The translations under genes were made by a program, and so were the position numbers. Below are positions 1 through 8,469 of a stretch of DNA of 11,418 nt, piece after piece. This stretch comes from an uncultured Gammaproteobacteria bacterium (GTDB lineage: Bacteria > Pseudomonadota > Gammaproteobacteria > Pseudomonadales > DT-91). Location of the stretch: contig CAKMZU010000082.1 of assembly GCA_929200485.1 (NCBI GenBank), positions 1 through 11,418 on the forward strand. The letters run 5' to 3'. The notes under the pieces are model-generated. The model worked only from the letters and a program-made list of their open reading frames with translations, was not told the origin of the DNA and searched no databases. Within the stretch, counting starts at the first letter, position 1, and each line of letters begins with the position of its first letter.

Positions 1-161
1 TCATCTGGATTTTAACTGTATTTTTTATTAGGAGTTAATAATATAAAAGGCGTGCTATCGTAAATATGCCTATATTTCAATAATCTACAGGTTTTCCAGT
101 GTTATTTTCTGTACACTGAAGCGGATAAGAGTCCCTTTTTTTAGGGTTGGTGAATATCAAC

Positions 162-173
162 TCTAGCGCTAGA
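162..173. other. 12-bp perfect palindrome in leader copy 1
   Basis: TCTAGCGCTAGA reads the same on both strands. The identical palindrome is at 1318-1329 in leader copy 2. It lies in the part of the leader that the third copy lacks. It could be a binding site for a dimeric regulator or part of an RNA fold; nothing here decides between these. Confidence 0.5.
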
Positions 174-281
174 TAAAATCAACGCATGTCGATTGCATTC
201 CTTAGAAATTAATAGACGTTTCAGCAGTGTGTATTTAATTAATGAACTATACCTCTCGCTTTAGTGTCTATAAAAAATTGC

Positions 282-311
282 ACCGATTGTTTTAATGTAA
301 TCGGTCTTTTT
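282..311 (+). terminator. Intrinsic terminator inside the leader of gene 1
   Basis: A perfect 7-bp stem ACCGATT/AATCGGT (282-288 with 299-305) with a 10-base loop is followed by C and five Ts. An A-run (272-277) lies upstream of the stem, so the structure may work in both directions. It ends only about 24 bases before the GGAG ribosome binding site of the next gene. It therefore either ends a short leader transcript (attenuation or a small RNA) or insulates the gene from upstream transcription. Confidence 0.7.
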
Positions 312-320
312 ATTTATACG
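291..320 (+). promoter_or_regulatory. Possible promoter overlapping the leader terminator, gene 1
   Basis: TTTAAT (291-296) and TATACG (315-320), 18 bases apart, are a weak -35/-10 pair. It would start a transcript just before the GGAG at 335-338. The same layout exists at 1449-1478 with the better -35 TTGAAT. It matters because it would let the gene be transcribed from downstream of the hairpin. The match is poor in this AT-rich sequence and may be chance. Confidence 0.2.
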
Positions 321-343
321 TTTCTAGTTATTTTGGAGTTCAA

Positions 344-1135
344 ATGAAAAAAATTCAATTTAATGCAATGCTATTTTCTTTATCAGCTGTATTTTTTATT
401 TCTTCATCATTTTCCGGAGAAACAGATAATTTTGTTTTTTCTTCATCGTACCAATTATTTGTAAGTTTGCTTGTAGGTAAAGCTGATAGAGCCAAGCAGT
501 ATATGATTTTTGAAGTTATTCGGTCAGATAAAAAAGTGTTAGCAGAAGATAATGTTAACTATAAAAATTTTTCTAAAGAATTAAAAAAATTAGAAATAGA
601 ATTTTTGGAATCTGAAAAAAGAGATTCGGGTTTGTCGTGTGAAGATAAAGTAGAAAATCCAAAGCTAAGGGAAAAACTATTTGAAAATCAACGGATATTT
701 GTAAAACAACGGGAAGAACTACGTGAAAAATATGGTGTGTATTATGGTCTGCGCAGCGTTGCAGCTCAAAGTCTGCCCGTGAAATTGATGCAAGATTTTA
801 TTTTTGAAAAAGATTATGAGTATATTCGTTATCGACCGGAAGTAAATAAAAGGGTGGCAGCTATTTTTAACATCATTCAACGTTCAATTAAACAAAATTC
901 ACCTTGTTATGCAAATAGATCAATCACCAAAAGCGAAGAAATCAAAACTTTCGTTAGTAAAAAGGAAGCTGCTCTTTCTGATATTTTGAAAGCTATAGAT
1001 TTAACGCAGCTGGGTGAGACTGATACGAGCATCATACCCTTAATTAAAGATGTTGCATTGGAGGAAAAAGAAACTAAGGAGTTTACGATATCTCGAGGTC
1101 AAATAAGCGGCGACATTCAGCCATTCAACCGCTAA
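344..1135 (+). CDS. Exported protein of unknown function, tandem paralog 1
   Basis: I do not recognise this 263-residue protein. The N-terminus is a clear signal peptide: two lysines after Met, a hydrophobic stretch at about residues 8-20, and a serine-rich cleavage zone near residue 24-25. The mature part is charged and largely helical in character, with Lys/Glu-rich stretches around 80-130. The ATG is well supported by GGAG five bases upstream (335-338), and the tandem paralog starts at the equivalent codon. The two proteins share long identical blocks, such as residues of SVAAQSLPV and LSDILKAIDLTQLGE. They differ by an 11-residue length difference near residue 105-125 and by unrelated C-termini. 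The gene sits in a repeat array with identical leaders. A periplasmic or secreted role is inferred from the signal peptide only; no catalytic motif is visible. Confidence 0.85.
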   Translation: MKKIQFNAMLFSLSAVFFISSSFSGETDNFVFSSSYQLFVSLLVGKADRAKQYMIFEVIRSDKKVLAEDNVNYKNFSKELKKLEIEFLESEKRDSGLSCEDKVENPKLREKLFENQRIFVKQREELREKYGVYYGLRSVAAQSLPVKLMQDFIFEKDYEYIRYRPEVNKRVAAIFNIIQRSIKQNSPCYANRSITKSEEIKTFVSKKEAALSDILKAIDLTQLGETDTSIIPLIKDVALEEKETKEFTISRGQISGDIQPFNR

Positions 1136-1317
1136 GGTGTATGGTTTCAATAGCGTTCATCTGGATTTTAACTGTATTTTTTATTAGGAGTTAATAATAT
1201 AAAAGGCGTGCTATCGTAAATATGCCTATATTTCAATAATCTACAGGTTTTCCAGTGTTATTTTCTGTACACTGAAGCGGATAAGAGTCCCTTTTTTTAG
1301 GGTTGGTGAATATCAAC

Positions 1318-1329
1318 TCTAGCGCTAGA
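1318..1329. other. 12-bp perfect palindrome in leader copy 2
   Basis: TCTAGCGCTAGA, identical to 162-173 and at the same place in the leader. Its unchanged state in both copies fits the general near-identity of the leaders, so it is not independent evidence of function. Confidence 0.5.
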
Positions 1330-1439
1330 TAAAATCAACGCATGTCGATTGCATTCCTTAGAAATTAATAGACGTTTCAGGCAGTGTGTATTTAATTAAT
1401 GAACTATACCTCTCGCTTTAGTGTCTATAAAAAAATTGC

Positions 1440-1469
1440 ACCGATTGTTTGAATCTAATCGGTCTTTTT
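1440..1469 (+). terminator. Intrinsic terminator inside the leader of gene 2
   Basis: The same 7-bp stem as in copy 1 (1440-1446 with 1457-1463) is followed by C and TTTTT (1465-1469). The only changes from copy 1 are two substitutions in the loop, so the stem is intact. It lies about 300 bases after the stop of the first gene and about 25 bases before the ribosome binding site of the second. Confidence 0.7.
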
Positions 1470-1478
1470 ATTTATACG
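1449..1478 (+). promoter_or_regulatory. Possible promoter overlapping the leader terminator, gene 2
   Basis: TTGAAT (1449-1454) and TATACG (1473-1478) are separated by 18 bases, with the GAGG ribosome binding site at 1494-1497. The T-to-G change in the hairpin loop relative to copy 1 moves the -35 closer to consensus. If real, the two genes would have different promoter strength despite near-identical leaders. The match is weak. Confidence 0.25.
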
Positions 1479-1501
1479 TTTCTATTTATTCTTGAGGTCA
1501 A

Positions 1502-2260
1502 ATGAAAAAAATTCAATTTAATACAATGCTATTTTTTTTATCATCTGTATTTTTTATTTCTTCATCATTTTCCGGAGGAACAGATAATTTTTGTTTTTCT
1601 TCATCGTGCAAATTACTTGTAAGTTTACTTGTGGGTAAAGCTGATAGAACCAAGCAGTATATGATTTTTGAAGTTGTTCGGTCAGCTACAAAAGTGTTAG
1701 CAGAAGATAATGTTAAATATAGAAATTTTGATGAAGAATTAAAAAAATTAAATAATGAATTTAAAGAAGCTGAAAAAAAAAGCGTTTATGGTTTGCGGTA
1801 TGATGATGGCGAAGATGGCGTGGAATATCGAAAGCAACGGAAAAAACTATTTGAAAAATATGGTGTGTATTATAGTCAGCTAAGCGTTGCAGCTCAAAGT
1901 CTGCCCGTGAGATTGAAGCAAGATTTTATTTTTGAAGAGGGAAGGGAGTTTTTTTCTTGTCAACCGGAAGTAGGCAAAAGGGCGACAGCAATTTCGTTTG
2001 CCATTCAAGATTCAATTAAACAAAAGTTATCTGGTTCTGTAAATATCTCAATCACCAAAAGCGAAGAAGAAATCATCACTCTCGTTAGAGAAAAGGAAGC
2101 TCCTCTTTCTGATATTTTGAAAGCTATAGATTTAACGCAACTGGGTGAGGGTGTGACTGATATGGGCATCATTTCCTTAATTAAAGATGTTGCATTCAAG
2201 GAAGAAGAAACTAATGAGTTTACGATATTTGGAAGTCGAATGAGTCTCCCGATTAAATAA
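1502..2260 (+). CDS. Exported protein of unknown function, tandem paralog 2
   Basis: This 252-residue paralog of the preceding gene has the same N-terminal signal peptide (Lys-rich start, hydrophobic core, cleavage near residue 24-25) and clearly related sequence over most of its length, roughly two thirds identical by eye. Start: ATG with GAGG four bases upstream. Differences include two extra cysteines just after the signal peptide (residues 31 and 36), a shortened and rewritten charged segment around residues 90-115, and a different C-terminal tail. Over the first ~95 codons I count about 20 amino-acid-changing codon differences against 2 silent ones, which suggests diversifying selection. 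The function is not recognisable. An exported host- or competitor-interacting protein would fit, but that is inference. Confidence 0.85.
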   Translation: MKKIQFNTMLFFLSSVFFISSSFSGGTDNFCFSSSCKLLVSLLVGKADRTKQYMIFEVVRSATKVLAEDNVKYRNFDEELKKLNNEFKEAEKKSVYGLRYDDGEDGVEYRKQRKKLFEKYGVYYSQLSVAAQSLPVRLKQDFIFEEGREFFSCQPEVGKRATAISFAIQDSIKQKLSGSVNISITKSEEEIITLVREKEAPLSDILKAIDLTQLGEGVTDMGIISLIKDVAFKEEETNEFTIFGSRMSLPIK

Positions 2261-2264
2261 CTCT

Positions 2265-2404
2265 TAAGGTGTATGGTTTCAATAGCGTTCATCTGGATTT
2301 TAACTGTATTTTTGATTAGGAGTTAATAATATAAAAGGCGTGCTATCGTAAATATGCCTATATTTCAATAATCTACAGGTTTTCCAGTGTTATTTTCTGT
2401 ACAC
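2265..2404 (+). repeat. Leader repeat copy 3 (partial)
   Basis: These 140 bp repeat 1133-1272 with essentially one substitution (T to G in the T-run). The match stops abruptly after GTACAC, though a weakly similar purine-rich stretch may continue for ~15 bases. The palindrome, terminator and remaining leader of copies 1 and 2 are missing. The sequence that follows (2405-2540) is unique in the window and leads into an unrelated exported protein. The copy marks the right boundary of the tandem duplication. Confidence 0.93.
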
Positions 2405-2540
2405 GAAAGCTGAGAAGATCCATAAATATTCCATATTCGATGAACTTTTAAGTTTATCATAGCTCTACACGATATAACGCCGATCAAATGGATGTCAACC
2501 GGTTAAAATGTACGGACACCACTGAATTGAGTTTTAATAT

Positions 2541-3305
2541 ATGACCAATAAAAATTATTTTAAATTTTGTTTATTCATCTTTTCTATATTTTTATTTTCA
2601 AGTATAACCATAGCTGGAGATGAGGATGGCACTAGGCCAATAACCCGCCAGCCAGGATCAGAAACATTGGAGCTTGAGGGGTTAGTGGGGTCTGATCTCA
2701 CAAAGGAACGTCAAAACCTAGCTACTTATATAAACAAAAAAGAAGAGAAAAATATGATAACCTGTGAGCCATTATATTTAGGCGAATCAGAAAAGTGCTG
2801 CATACCTGTATGCAGAACTGCAACAGAATCAAACTATAGGCATAGGTATTTTGAATGCGGCACCGAATCTTGTCAGTCGACTACATGCACTTTAGGTTCA
2901 GCAGCCTTATTTGCTACATTGTTCGCCTTAGCTACCAACGCTGGATTGGAATTAACACCTTCAGCTCAACAAATCGGAGAAAATGCGTTGGCTGCTTGTT
3001 GCGCATCGTGTTGTGGAGCATGTTTTCTGCCGCATGGTCGCGCATACGATACAAATATTCGTAAAGATGCAGGTTGCCTCTTCTGCTGCGGTATTATGAG
3101 CTCTGCAGCGCTGGTAGCATACCCTGCGTACAGTTCCCTCTATTTCCCAAAATCTCTACAGTGGGCTGGTAATACGCTTCTACCGCCTCTTTGCCAAGCC
3201 ATAACAGCTGACTGTCGCGATACTAATACCTATTATTCTTGGCTATTAAAACCATGTTTCTCGTGTAAGGAAGAAAATACAGATCACATAACTGAAGATA
3301 TTTGA
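2541..3305 (+). CDS. Exported cysteine-rich protein of unknown function
   Basis: A 254-residue protein I cannot assign to a family. Residues 1-25 form a signal peptide with a strongly hydrophobic Phe/Ile/Leu core and a likely cleavage after Ala25 (TIA-G). The mature part has 19 cysteines, many in clusters: 86, 87, 91; 106, 111, 116; 153, 154, 157, 158, 161; 179, 182, 183; 218, 225; 239, 242. Two hydrophobic stretches (about 118-136 and 179-203) could be membrane-associated. In an oxidising compartment such a pattern suggests disulfide bonds; metal binding is an alternative. The start has a weak TGAG about nine bases upstream. A cysteine-rich exported protein behind a repeat array would fit a surface or effector-like role, which is inference only. 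Confidence 0.8.
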   Translation: MTNKNYFKFCLFIFSIFLFSSITIAGDEDGTRPITRQPGSETLELEGLVGSDLTKERQNLATYINKKEEKNMITCEPLYLGESEKCCIPVCRTATESNYRHRYFECGTESCQSTTCTLGSAALFATLFALATNAGLELTPSAQQIGENALAACCASCCGACFLPHGRAYDTNIRKDAGCLFCCGIMSSAALVAYPAYSSLYFPKSLQWAGNTLLPPLCQAITADCRDTNTYYSWLLKPCFSCKEENTDHITEDI

Positions 3306-3381
3306 AGAGTCATAAATTTGAAGCCGAGAGCAATTATCATGAGCAATACCTGTGAATTTATCAATCAAAGGTATTTCGTTT

Positions 3382-3401
3382 ATGATGTACTAGTACATCA
3401 T
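3382..3401. repeat. 20-bp perfect palindrome at the left edge of the MITE-like element
   Basis: ATGATGTACTAGTACATCAT is self-complementary over all 20 bases, centred on CTAG. Its right half is the outer end of the left terminal inverted repeat of the adjacent element. Its left half lies outside the element. It therefore looks like either a preferred target sequence or the remnant of a second element end placed head to head. Confidence 0.8.
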
Positions 3402-3544
3402 GTCAAACTGATTGTCGGGTAAGCGCTATTCTTATAAACACACTTCGACAAGCTCAGTGTGAGCGGTTATCCACTCTCTCGCTCATCCTGAGCCCGTCGG
3501 AAGATACCTTACATGCGACAAACCTTTTGACACGAAGTACTAGT
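3389..3544. mobile_element. MITE-like palindromic element, ~156 bp
   Basis: The two ends are inverted copies. Bases 3389-3417 match the reverse complement of 3516-3544 at 24 of 29 positions, starting with ACTAGTAC. The interior continues the dyad with a second pair of arms, 3443-3465 (CTTCGACAAGCTCAG...) and 3480-3503. I recognise these as resembling a short palindromic repeat common in proteobacterial genomes. There is no coding capacity, so any movement would need a transposase from elsewhere. A CTAG at each end (3390-3393, 3540-3543) could be a duplicated target. The element lies between two convergent genes and its RNA could fold into a long hairpin that ends transcription. Confidence 0.65.
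3443..3503. repeat. REP-like inverted repeat in the core of the element
   Basis: The left arm CTTCGACAAGCTCAGTGTG.. (3443-3465) and right arm CGCTCATCCTGAGCCCGTCG.. (3480-3503) are imperfect inverse copies around a 14-base loop. The CTTCGACAAGCTCAG type of sequence is, from general knowledge, a recurrent extragenic palindrome in many proteobacteria. Copy number in this genome cannot be judged from one window. Confidence 0.7.
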
Positions 3545-3815
3545 GATGCTTGGAAGGGTCAAGAATTTTTACTGCTTGTACCTCATCTTCATGTGCCAAT
3601 GGTTTTTCACCAACCTTTGGCTGATTTACTCGGGTTGTAAGTTCCTTTTGTGTTGGTTGATTCGCCATCTCTTCTTTAAAGCCGCAAGAGACACATTCAC
3701 GAAAGCGAACGCCTGCTTCATCATCAAACATGACGACTTTATCCATTTGATGACATTCCGGGCAGGTTGCGCCGGCAATAAACCGGCGGAAAATACGATT
3801 TTTTGAGGCGCTCAT
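3540..3815 (-). CDS. yheV: YheV-family zinc-ribbon protein
   Basis: This 91-residue protein has the N-terminal pattern of the YheV family of putative metal-binding proteins: an Arg/Phe-rich start, then CPEC (Cys18, Cys21) and CVSCGF (Cys41, Cys44), the two knuckles of a zinc ribbon. The biochemical role of the family is not established to my knowledge. It starts four bases after the prlC stop codon on the same strand, so co-transcription with prlC is likely; this pairing is common in gammaproteobacteria. It is longer than the E. coli protein (about 66 residues), the extra part being a polar C-terminal tail. The last codons and the TAG stop fall in the right end of the MITE-like element, so the original C-terminus may have been altered by the insertion. 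Confidence 0.88.
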   Translation of the reverse strand: MSASKNRIFRRFIAGATCPECHQMDKVVMFDDEAGVRFRECVSCGFKEEMANQPTQKELTTRVNQPKVGEKPLAHEDEVQAVKILDPSKHH

Positions 3816-5967: not shown

Positions 5968-6813
5968 TTATTTTTTCAACTGGCATTTTGCATAAACTTC
6001 TTTAGTGAACGAATCATTAAGAACATCCGCTTTAAAGTCAGGATTGTCCTGGTTACTCTCAATAAATCGACACAAAGAATCAAAAGTTAAACCTGAGTCA
6101 AAAGGAATTGCATTAAGTATTTGAATATAATTTGCTGATATAAGCTGTTTATTGGAGAAAAGCTTGTTTTTAACCGAGATAAGATTCTGCTGGCGATCGT
6201 CGAAAAACACTAAATGTTTAAACGTTTTAGGTTTAAGCAAATCAAGTAATTTTAAGGCAGCGTCACCTTTTTCCATTTGTGGGCCAATCGTGTAAAGACC
6301 GTGTTTAATGCCAATATCAAGGCAGGTGATATTACTGAACCTAATCTTAAATTTTGCTAATTGATCAATGGTGTTTTCCAGAAGCGCTCTTTGTCTTGCG
6401 GTAAAACCTATGACTGTTGCTCCGCGTTTTTTTAGTATGTCTATGAGCTCCGGGAGTATTGGATCGGTCAAGTTAACAGGTAAATATTTATATATACTGT
6501 TAAAAAGTGCTTTTATGTATCGGTCAGCGGCTTCATTGGTTAATTTATGCGTATTGATTACGCCGGCTTTCATAAAGTCATAAAACGAAGAGGAGCCGAT
6601 GAAGGTAACATTTTCTTTGGTTATTAACGTGTCATCAATATCAAATAAAATCAAAGTGTTTGATAGGTCTTTGCTCTTACTTATTTCTTTAAAGATGTAA
6701 TAACCAATATCTTTATTCAAGGTTGCATTTTCGCGAATGCTTTGAGCGGTAAAAGAAGGTTTCGGCAATATTATAACAAGTAATGCTGATAGTAAGGCGC
6801 AGTAAAACTTCAT
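5968..6813 (-). CDS. Exported HAD-superfamily (DUF2608-like) phosphatase-type protein 1
   Basis: A 281-residue protein with a signal peptide (residues 1-23, likely cleavage after FTA). All four HAD motifs are present: DIDDT with nucleophile Asp58 and acid/base Asp60; the motif II threonine at 138 in GFTAR; Lys182 in EKGDA; and Asp205-Asp206 in FFDDRQQN. The domain should therefore be catalytically competent, probably as a periplasmic or secreted phosphatase; the substrate is unknown. It resembles the DUF2608 group I associate with Legionella and Coxiella relatives. A paralog lies at 7609-8469 with the same motif spacing. ATG start, preceded by AAGGGA about eight bases upstream. It sits between the divergent genes prlC and yrdA and is bracketed by a 12-bp inverted repeat, which suggests it was inserted there. 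Confidence 0.82.
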   Translation of the reverse strand: MKFYCALLSALLVIILPKPSFTAQSIRENATLNKDIGYYIFKEISKSKDLSNTLILFDIDDTLITKENVTFIGSSSFYDFMKAGVINTHKLTNEAADRYIKALFNSIYKYLPVNLTDPILPELIDILKKRGATVIGFTARQRALLENTIDQLAKFKIRFSNITCLDIGIKHGLYTIGPQMEKGDAALKLLDLLKPKTFKHLVFFDDRQQNLISVKNKLFSNKQLISANYIQILNAIPFDSGLTFDSLCRFIESNQDNPDFKADVLNDSFTKEVYAKCQLKK

Positions 6814-7075: not shown

Positions 7076-7639
7076 ATGAAACATTGTGATCAGTCTTTTT
7101 CTATTCGTGCCTTTGGCGATAAAGTGCCAGAGTTGGGGGAGAGAGTATTTGTCGATCGTTCAGCCGTCATTATTGGGGATGTGACTATTGGCGATGACAG
7201 TTCTATTTGGCCTCAGTGTGCGTTAAGAGGGGATATGCATTTTATTCGCATTGGTGAGAGAACAAGTATTCAGGATGTGACACTTTGTCATGTTACGCAT
7301 GACAGTGATTTTAACCCGGAAGGTTACCCTCTGATTATTGGTGATGACTGCACTATCGCGCATCAAGTGACCCTGCATGGCTGCAAAGTCGGGAACCGTG
7401 TGTTAGTGGGTATGGGGTCAACCCTTATGGATGGTGCTGTGATTGAAGATGATGTTGTTATCGGGGCAGGCTCGTTAGTTCCGCCGGGAAAAACATTGGT
7501 ATCAGGCTTTCTATATCTTGGGTCGCCTGTGAAGCAAATTAGGCCATTAACAGAAAAAGAAATGGCCTTTTTTACCTATTCAGCGAATAACTATCGAAAA
7601 CTAAAAGATCAGTATTTATCAGAAGATGGATCTGAATAA
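7076..7639 (+). CDS. yrdA: Gamma-carbonic-anhydrase family protein (YrdA)
   Basis: A 187-residue left-handed beta-helix protein of hexapeptide repeats, such as IIGDVTIGDD and VVIGAGSLV, very close to E. coli YrdA through to the C-terminal YLGSPVKQIRPL and YSANNY segments. Metal-binding histidines are in place: His72 in CHVTH, and His96 and His101 in AHQVTLHG. Arg51 and Asp53 are in the RGD segment. The family is built like gamma carbonic anhydrases and binds zinc, but carbonic anhydrase activity has not been shown for all members, so the exact reaction is uncertain. The ATG fits the E. coli N-terminus; the ribosome binding site is weak. The 3' end overlaps the convergent HAD gene by 31 bases. 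Confidence 0.95.
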   Translation: MKHCDQSFSIRAFGDKVPELGERVFVDRSAVIIGDVTIGDDSSIWPQCALRGDMHFIRIGERTSIQDVTLCHVTHDSDFNPEGYPLIIGDDCTIAHQVTLHGCKVGNRVLVGMGSTLMDGAVIEDDVVIGAGSLVPPGKTLVSGFLYLGSPVKQIRPLTEKEMAFFTYSANNYRKLKDQYLSEDGSE

Positions 7640-8469
7640 GATTTATTGCAGTCTCGCCAAAAATCCTGTGCAAAAGTATTTTTAGCAAAAAAGGCCTTAA
7701 ATTCACTATCACTTTGGTTTGTTTCAATGAAATCACAAAGTTCTTGATTGGCCTTTTGCAGGTTAAAAGCACTTTCTGGTGGGATGATGACATGCGCATA
7801 AATGGCTTTGTCTATCATCGGGAGCCCTTTAAGCGCCATCTGAACGGATGCTAGATGCTTTGCTTTGTCGTCAAGGAAGATAACTTTCTGAATGTATTTG
7901 TCTTTCAATTCATTCATTAATGCTTTTGCCGCCTCTCCTTTGGATATGGATTGCCCAACAGTAAACAATCCATCTTTTAGAAACAATTTACTGCTTGTGA
8001 CTGGCGAGAATTGGATACCCATTTGGTTGAGTTGATTCAATGTCGTATCCAAAAGAATCGTGCCTCTGGCTGTAAAGCCAATAACCAAAGCGCCCTTTGT
8101 TTTTAATTTTTTTATTGTCTCAGGAATGTTAGGGCCCGTGAGCAACGCAGGCGTTCGTTTATAGACTTCCATTAATAATCTGTCGACGGAGTCGATTGCT
8201 TGCTGCTTGCTGAGATGCTTTTCATTAACCAGCATGTCAATTAAACCGTAGAAGTGTTCAGATGAGCTTAACCAGGTTCCCGGTTTATGGGTAATCAGCG
8301 TGTTATCAACATCGAGTAAAATCAGGGTGTTGGGTAAATCGTTTTGCGTGAAAACCTGTGTTTCGAAAAAATGGCTGATGTTTGCGCGATCTATGGAAAG
8401 GAATGTTTGATCTTCAGCTTGAATTAGAATGCAACTAATTGAAATAAATATTAAAAAAACTCTTATCAT
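7609..8469 (-). CDS. Exported HAD-superfamily (DUF2608-like) phosphatase-type protein 2
   Basis: A 286-residue paralog of the 5968-6813 product. The signal peptide spans about residues 1-18 (cleavage after IQA). HAD motifs: DVDNT (Asp53, Asp55), Thr133 in GFTAR, Lys177 in SKGEA and Asp200-Asp201 in FLDDKAKH. The fourth residue of motif I is Asn rather than Asp, which is tolerated in the superfamily. Shared blocks with the paralog include NTLIL.D.D.TLIT, VIGFTAR and the C-terminal FIE.NQ stretch with a following Cys, so they arose by duplication. The substrate is unknown and the location is probably periplasmic. The ATG has no clear ribosome binding site. Its end overlaps yrdA tail to tail, leaving no room for a terminator between them. 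Confidence 0.82.
   Translation of the reverse strand: MIRVFLIFISISCILIQAEDQTFLSIDRANISHFFETQVFTQNDLPNTLILLDVDNTLITHKPGTWLSSSEHFYGLIDMLVNEKHLSKQQAIDSVDRLLMEVYKRTPALLTGPNIPETIKKLKTKGALVIGFTARGTILLDTTLNQLNQMGIQFSPVTSSKLFLKDGLFTVGQSISKGEAAKALMNELKDKYIQKVIFLDDKAKHLASVQMALKGLPMIDKAIYAHVIIPPESAFNLQKANQELCDFIETNQSDSEFKAFFAKNTFAQDFWRDCNKSYSDPSSDKY

Follow-up and report, generated by a model that had tools for sequence, protein, structure and literature searches.

A conserved "leader" before two diverged genes for putatively exported proteins is probably the seam of a tandem duplication

The window, which is the whole stretch of DNA analysed here (11,418 nt), corresponds to contig C82 in a draft genome that totals 3.66 Mb over 512 contigs. 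Its 5' part holds a tandem array of two paralogous genes, A and B, followed by a third gene, C. The two units of the array are 1156 and 1132 nt long, homologous head to tail, and have one junction sequence. Each of A and B is preceded by a stretch termed here the leader (1-343 and 1157-1501), and a 140-nt portion at 1133-1272 is referred to as the core. As C82 begins at window base 1, 24 nt into a core copy, the left part of the array is missing. The features of the array are as follows.

1..116, + strand: core copy 1, core bases 25-140, 100% identical to 1157-1272; the contig starts inside it
134..166, + strand: last codons and stop (164-166) of an upstream gene, in leader 1, from the match to the end of contig C114 and the frame comparison with locus L010
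167..343, + strand: sequence flanking the upstream gene on its 3' side, followed by the region where gene A starts, placed by location in leader 1; no mismatches to leader 2 up to 292
282..314, + strand: terminator-like hairpin (282-305) with T-rich tail, leader 1, from a consensus scan in which the number of sites was not above chance
344..1135, + strand: gene A, 263 aa, signal-like N-terminus, without known family, ending in a stop codon that also forms bases 1-3 of the core
1133..1272, + strand: core copy 2, 3' of gene A and opening part of leader 2, from repeat comparison
1290..1322, + strand: second copy, in leader 2, of the upstream gene's tail fragment, with no difference from 134-166
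1440..1472, + strand: terminator-like hairpin with T-rich tail, leader 2, from the same consensus scan, with a number of sites not above chance
1502..2260, + strand: gene B, 252 aa, paralogue of A by alignment
2265..2404, + strand: core copy 3, one mismatch in 140 to copy 2, read as native spacer and right edge of the duplicated segment
2428..2526, + strand: dispersed element in front of gene C that is unrelated to the A/B leader and recurs at least five more times in the genome
2541..3305, + strand: gene C, 254 aa with 20 cysteines and a signal-like N-terminus, from its translation; no relatives found in homology searches

The genes located 3' of the array have family matches to a DUF2387 protein (zn), a peptidase M3, two DUF2608 proteins, and a hexapeptide-repeat protein. 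Further genes in the window are read, from their translations only, as aroE-, hemF-, and tsaC-like. Among the matches listed for the prlC-like peptidase (at least 80 loci, named genomes), the best is L010 (JAPOUS010000025.1), a metagenome-assembled "Cellvibrionales bacterium", with 79% identity. The GC content of A, B, and the leaders is 32-33%, and that of gene C and prlC is 41%. The two DUF2608 genes lie at 5968-6813 and 7609-8469 and have signal-like N-termini; both proteins match one single stretch of L010 (37% and 59%), and one of the genes may be an extra copy in the genome of the window. A 150-nt dispersed repeat occupies 3389-3539. Its near-full copies on C65, C6, C78, C34, and C119 are 95-97% identical, its ends match each other inverted (28 nt, 86%), and it is MITE-like. 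Literature searches brought up no paper that we recognised as dealing with this locus.

The N-termini of A and B are hydrophobic and signal-like, as judged by eye. No known domain was found in A or B, weak sub-cut-off profile matches being dismissed, and no solved structure matched A. The structure model of A has a mean pLDDT of 41 and was set aside. Relatives of A were absent from the protein collection, apart from the window's own two proteins, and from the named genomes, plasmids, and phages. The viral contigs matched neither the A/B alignment nor the core motif, and B had no relatives in the four other genomes of the genus. An order-wide search of 390 genomes gave matches at E up to 1 in 22 genomes besides the own one, of which the best (E = 0.0017 over 37 residues) was taken as chance. 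Among 56 genomes, the leader occurs in the own genome only. Given their signal-like N-termini, A, B, and C are presumed to be exported, and because the proteins are lineage-restricted and divergent, our guess is that they face a host or competitors.

Over 343 aligned bases the two leaders show 6 mismatches, in addition to two one-base indels; the first 277 aligned bases, and in the change-point alignment the first 292, contain no mismatch. The genes behind them (344-1135 and 1502-2260) differ by 133 mismatches in 754 aligned bases with five gap events, and their products, of 263 and 252 aa, are 63-67% identical with unlike C-termini. The internal gaps of the protein alignment are whole codons, and both frames are open. 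None of 298 leader and core bases differs, namely 277 bases of leader 1 versus leader 2 and 21 bases of core copy 2 versus copy 3, compared with differences at about 24 of the 155 synonymous sites in the genes (Fisher p = 2e-12). Hence, the contrast between leader and gene exceeds chance, and the preliminary description of this DNA was right in reporting near-identical leaders before diverged genes that have changed in length and C-terminus.

We located change points in the divergence between the units at 293, 559, and 1108, the last with the first held fixed. Mismatches amount to 0/292 before the first point, 21/266 at 293-558, 104/516 at 559-1107, and 14/23 at 1108-1135. The point at 559 lies within the gene, and its step was matched by none of 300 permutations when the coding part was taken alone. 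Abrupt boundaries had been described before; the steps are indeed sharp, but low divergence continues past the start codon up to the second step in the gene. Synonymous differences number 2 in 43 sites in codons 1-66 versus 22 in 112 beyond (p = 0.024). Nonsynonymous changes are likewise fewer at the 5' end (p = 1e-4), and N-terminal constraint may add to the low 5' divergence. The stepped divergence is read as a mosaic of recombination tracts.

The composition of the leader points to its origin. In L010, a 625-aa gene near the zn and prlC genes ends 210 nt from the zn gene; it is read as encoding a membrane protein and has no Pfam match. Its best match in the genome of the window lies where contig C114 ends and falls into two pieces, 56 and 66% identical, with the neighboring genes in the same order as in L010; weaker matches lie on C18, C274, C338, and C57. 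Over its final 19 bases, C114 agrees with leader bases 134-152 at 18 positions, a score that was reached by none of 1000 mononucleotide-shuffled leaders. Read on into the leader, the C114 frame ends as SRFKPLPFSRVGEYQL-stop (stop codon at 164-166), compared with SRFKPLSFSQKKDYEF-stop in L010, so that the C-termini are EYQL-stop in the frame of leader 1 and DYEF-stop in L010. The match to the C114 end and a C-terminus like that of L010 together identify 134-166 as the tail of the neighbor gene. This tail fragment is identical in leaders 1 and 2, where it has no evident use. The bases following 166 are the 3' flank of the neighbor gene with the terminator-like hairpin.

Core copy 3 runs on into the upstream region of gene C, and the core is therefore the spacer behind the array genes. 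The third partial copy of the preliminary description is present, with its one mismatch in 140. Because the core separates the last array gene from gene C as a spacer, however, we read this copy as the native end of the duplicated segment on the right. The label "leader" likewise does not suit much of the element, which consists of a gene tail, the 3' flank of that gene, and a downstream spacer. Rather than a dedicated control leader, it is probably a tandem-duplication seam. Leader bases 117-133, which weakly resemble 2405-2418 (28 nt at 86%, core end included), are unaccounted for by the seam model. A scan of 1-3600 gave three terminator sites versus 2.6 in shuffles and 22 promoter-like sites versus 14.2. 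An attenuator with a leader peptide was considered and set aside. Its 17-codon frames (242-295 and 1399-1452) end in both terminator loops, no ribosome-binding site was seen by eye, and the hairpin is more simply the upstream gene's own. The whole leader as a structured RNA was also rejected, with a fold z of -1.2 and no Rfam match.

We consider it likely that the locus arose by tandem duplication, with the seams kept alike by recombination between units. The duplicated segment would have contained the last codons and 3' flank of the neighbor gene, one gene for a secreted protein, and a downstream spacer of about 140 nt. The leader would then be the junction of a 1.13-1.16-kb unit, at which the core as downstream spacer is fused to the neighbor's tail. 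The genes would have diverged after duplication, while the seam of about 300 nt and, less strictly, the first 70 or so codons would have been homogenised by homologous recombination between units, either by gene conversion or by unequal crossing-over. Recombination is favored over leader function by the identity, in both copies, of a gene fragment that has no evident use and by the step at 559. Moreover, the neighboring core copies are alike while a distant copy on C197 has drifted, which points to recombination between neighbors. Of the two causes offered earlier for the identity of the leaders, gene conversion and function, recombination between units is thus the best reading, and leader function is unlikely as the whole cause. 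The earlier proposal of repeated recombination at the leader agrees with the steps in divergence and with the identical tail fragments.

Since the contig opens with a core copy and a native left unit should have none in front, we infer a further unit in the gap to the left of the contig, so that the array probably has at least three. Alternatively, the assembler may have over-extended the contig. A genome search with A returned only A and B, and any further unit would therefore lie outside the assembly. Several points weigh against duplication with homogenised seams. The adjacency of C114 and C82 is one that we infer from synteny and the 19-nt overlap; the synonymous test (p = 0.024) is moderate, and N-terminal constraint contributes; and there are two gene copies only, for which an assembler can also yield identical seams. 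An assembly artefact, in which mixed strains or collapsed repeats turn two alleles into an apparent tandem pair, would suit a draft of 512 contigs in which C82 begins and C114 ends inside the repeat. We regard it as improbable, because the seams differ by two indels and 6 substitutions further on, and because the fusion of core and gene tail occurs twice, which needs some duplication.

Cassette exchange offers another explanation of the contrast between seam and gene. The seams would be young, and the genes between them would have been replaced by diverged alleles from other strains, perhaps under diversifying selection, with the flanking repeats as homology arms. The duplication anatomy is common to this explanation and to the preferred one. 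Exchange fits the abrupt changes in divergence at 293 and at 1133, where the core begins and just before which 14 of 23 bases differ, as well as alignment gaps of whole codons in open frames. The comparison of A and B gave dN 0.21 and dS 0.17 (NG86). The resulting omega of about 1.2 would also suit exchange, but with a bootstrap range of 0.82-2.01 it is not different from 1 and does not establish the diversifying selection offered earlier as an option, and a donor allele or relative was not found in the collections searched. We therefore consider exchange doubtful, although conversion of seams and import of a diverged gene between young seams both fit and cannot be separated. If exchange were true, the locus would be a small example of expansion and diversification of exported-protein genes in an uncultured lineage. 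The preferred event, duplication with recombination between units, is ordinary in kind and its anatomy is instructive: a conserved "leader" can be a duplication seam, and here the tail of the neighboring gene revealed its origin.

The core was also followed through the genome. A core profile found four strong copies, three of them in the window, and weak ones from E = 0.12; with 150 of 1878 candidates scored, this copy number is a lower bound. The fourth copy, on C197, is 84% identical over 79 nt, and the three neighboring copies differ by at most one base. The diverged copy (L090 4076-4185) has an SDR-family gene on one side and a pair of IS3-like transposase genes on the other, and no array-type gene behind it. 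A genome search with the core, to see which genes follow each copy, had been suggested earlier; as it gave a single further, diverged copy beside an IS3-like element, the core is no marker of a family of exported-protein genes.

A 63-nt block of the core is kept better in the C197 copy (56/63) than its flanks (23/48), the block having been picked after the alignment was viewed. To judge from its conservation, this block may be functional in itself. Folded alone as RNA, the core has a z of -2.4, with 2 of 200 shuffles as good. Both the kept block and the somewhat better fold would be expected if the leader were a conserved promoter or 5' UTR of exported-protein genes, with its identity due to selection. 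Such functional constraint is very unlikely to be the explanation, since a truncated tail of a neighbor gene lies inside the identical stretch, low divergence extends into the gene, and the C197 copy has no gene of the A/B family behind it. Further, 19 of the 43 pairs of the fold are broken in the C197 copy, and window 1-3600 has no Rfam match to E = 1; the core as a structured RNA was rejected on the same two grounds.

The core begins at the stop codon of A and 4 nt past that of B. This position, the copy elsewhere in the genome, and ten tyrosine-recombinase matches in the genome would be in line with integron-like or other mobile cassettes having the core as recombination site. Nevertheless, the three core copies contain no GTTRRRY on either strand, the core has no stable single-strand DNA fold, and its strong copies number four, three of them in the window, among the candidates scored. 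The ten recombinase matches all lie on contigs other than that of the window, the left flank of the array being unassembled. The core as attC or mobile element was thus rejected, and we give mobile cassettes hardly any credence.

Tandem paralogues can undergo concerted evolution by gene conversion or unequal crossing-over. The array resembles them in its head-to-tail units, its near-identical intergenic stretches, and a stepwise divergence as from recombination tracts. It differs in that the seam is better kept than the gene and carries a fragment of a neighbor gene, with two units visible. The array is also similar to integron cassettes with attC, in having a repeated element close behind each stop codon, and unlike them in that the core is without GTTRRRY and stable DNA fold. 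For the vpma multigene locus of Mycoplasma agalactiae, which encodes exported proteins, chimeras, deletions, and duplications are reported, and switching occurs by Xer1-mediated inversions (PMC5634654). The array is comparable to vpma in being an apparently rearranging multigene locus of proteins that are exported to judge by their signal-like N-termini; different from vpma, it shows no recombinase beside it on the contig, no inverted units, and no evidence of phase variation.

The element upstream of gene C (2428-2526) is of another kind. It has at least five other copies, on C20, C45, C9, C222, and C264; the number is a lower bound, with 40 of 48 candidates scored.

Other copies of the element: L131 1954-2052 (- strand), L134 863-955 (- strand), L135 1847-1894 (- strand), L133 132-227 (- strand), and L132 1540-1608 (+ strand)

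Four of the six copies have enough downstream DNA (those of gene C, C20, C222, and C264), and all four precede frames with signal-like N-termini, as judged by eye, at a distance of about 14 to 53 nt. The C9 and C45 copies reach contig ends, and no such frame was seen there. The C20 frame opens with GTG, and masked bases affect the C222 N-terminus (ten bases) and a portion of the C264 element. The four downstream proteins have no mutual BLASTP match up to E = 0.5. The element contains a TATAAC/TATAAT-like block and a conserved tail; a near-palindrome of 16/20 in the gene C copy drops to 12 in C9 and 8 in C222 and is thus not kept. A profile of five copies recovered the sixth (C264, E = 2e-12), and in the 12 sequences searched it had no match before A or B. 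A partial match of the profile on C114 (E = 0.003, L124 6343-6392), at the end of a coxA-like gene, was treated as chance.

It is the gene C element and not the array leader that has the behavior of a control region shared by exported proteins, possibly a promoter plus 5' UTR. Exported proteins that lack sequence relatives and may be co-regulated could be gathered by means of this element. Very tentatively, the array could form part of a larger system of orphan exported proteins in this lineage, as one of its outlets. A, B, and any missing units would diversify through the seams as homology arms, while C and at least three unrelated proteins (C20, C222, and C264) would share the promoter/5' UTR of about 100 nt, forming a co-regulated host- or competitor-facing set. 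On C20, a 16-nt sequence, GTGAAAGGTTTTTATT, occurs as three tandem copies, and the start of the exported-protein gene falls inside this repeat (L131 ~1880-1930, - strand). As the 16-nt unit is not a multiple of three, slippage could shift the start frame of this gene.
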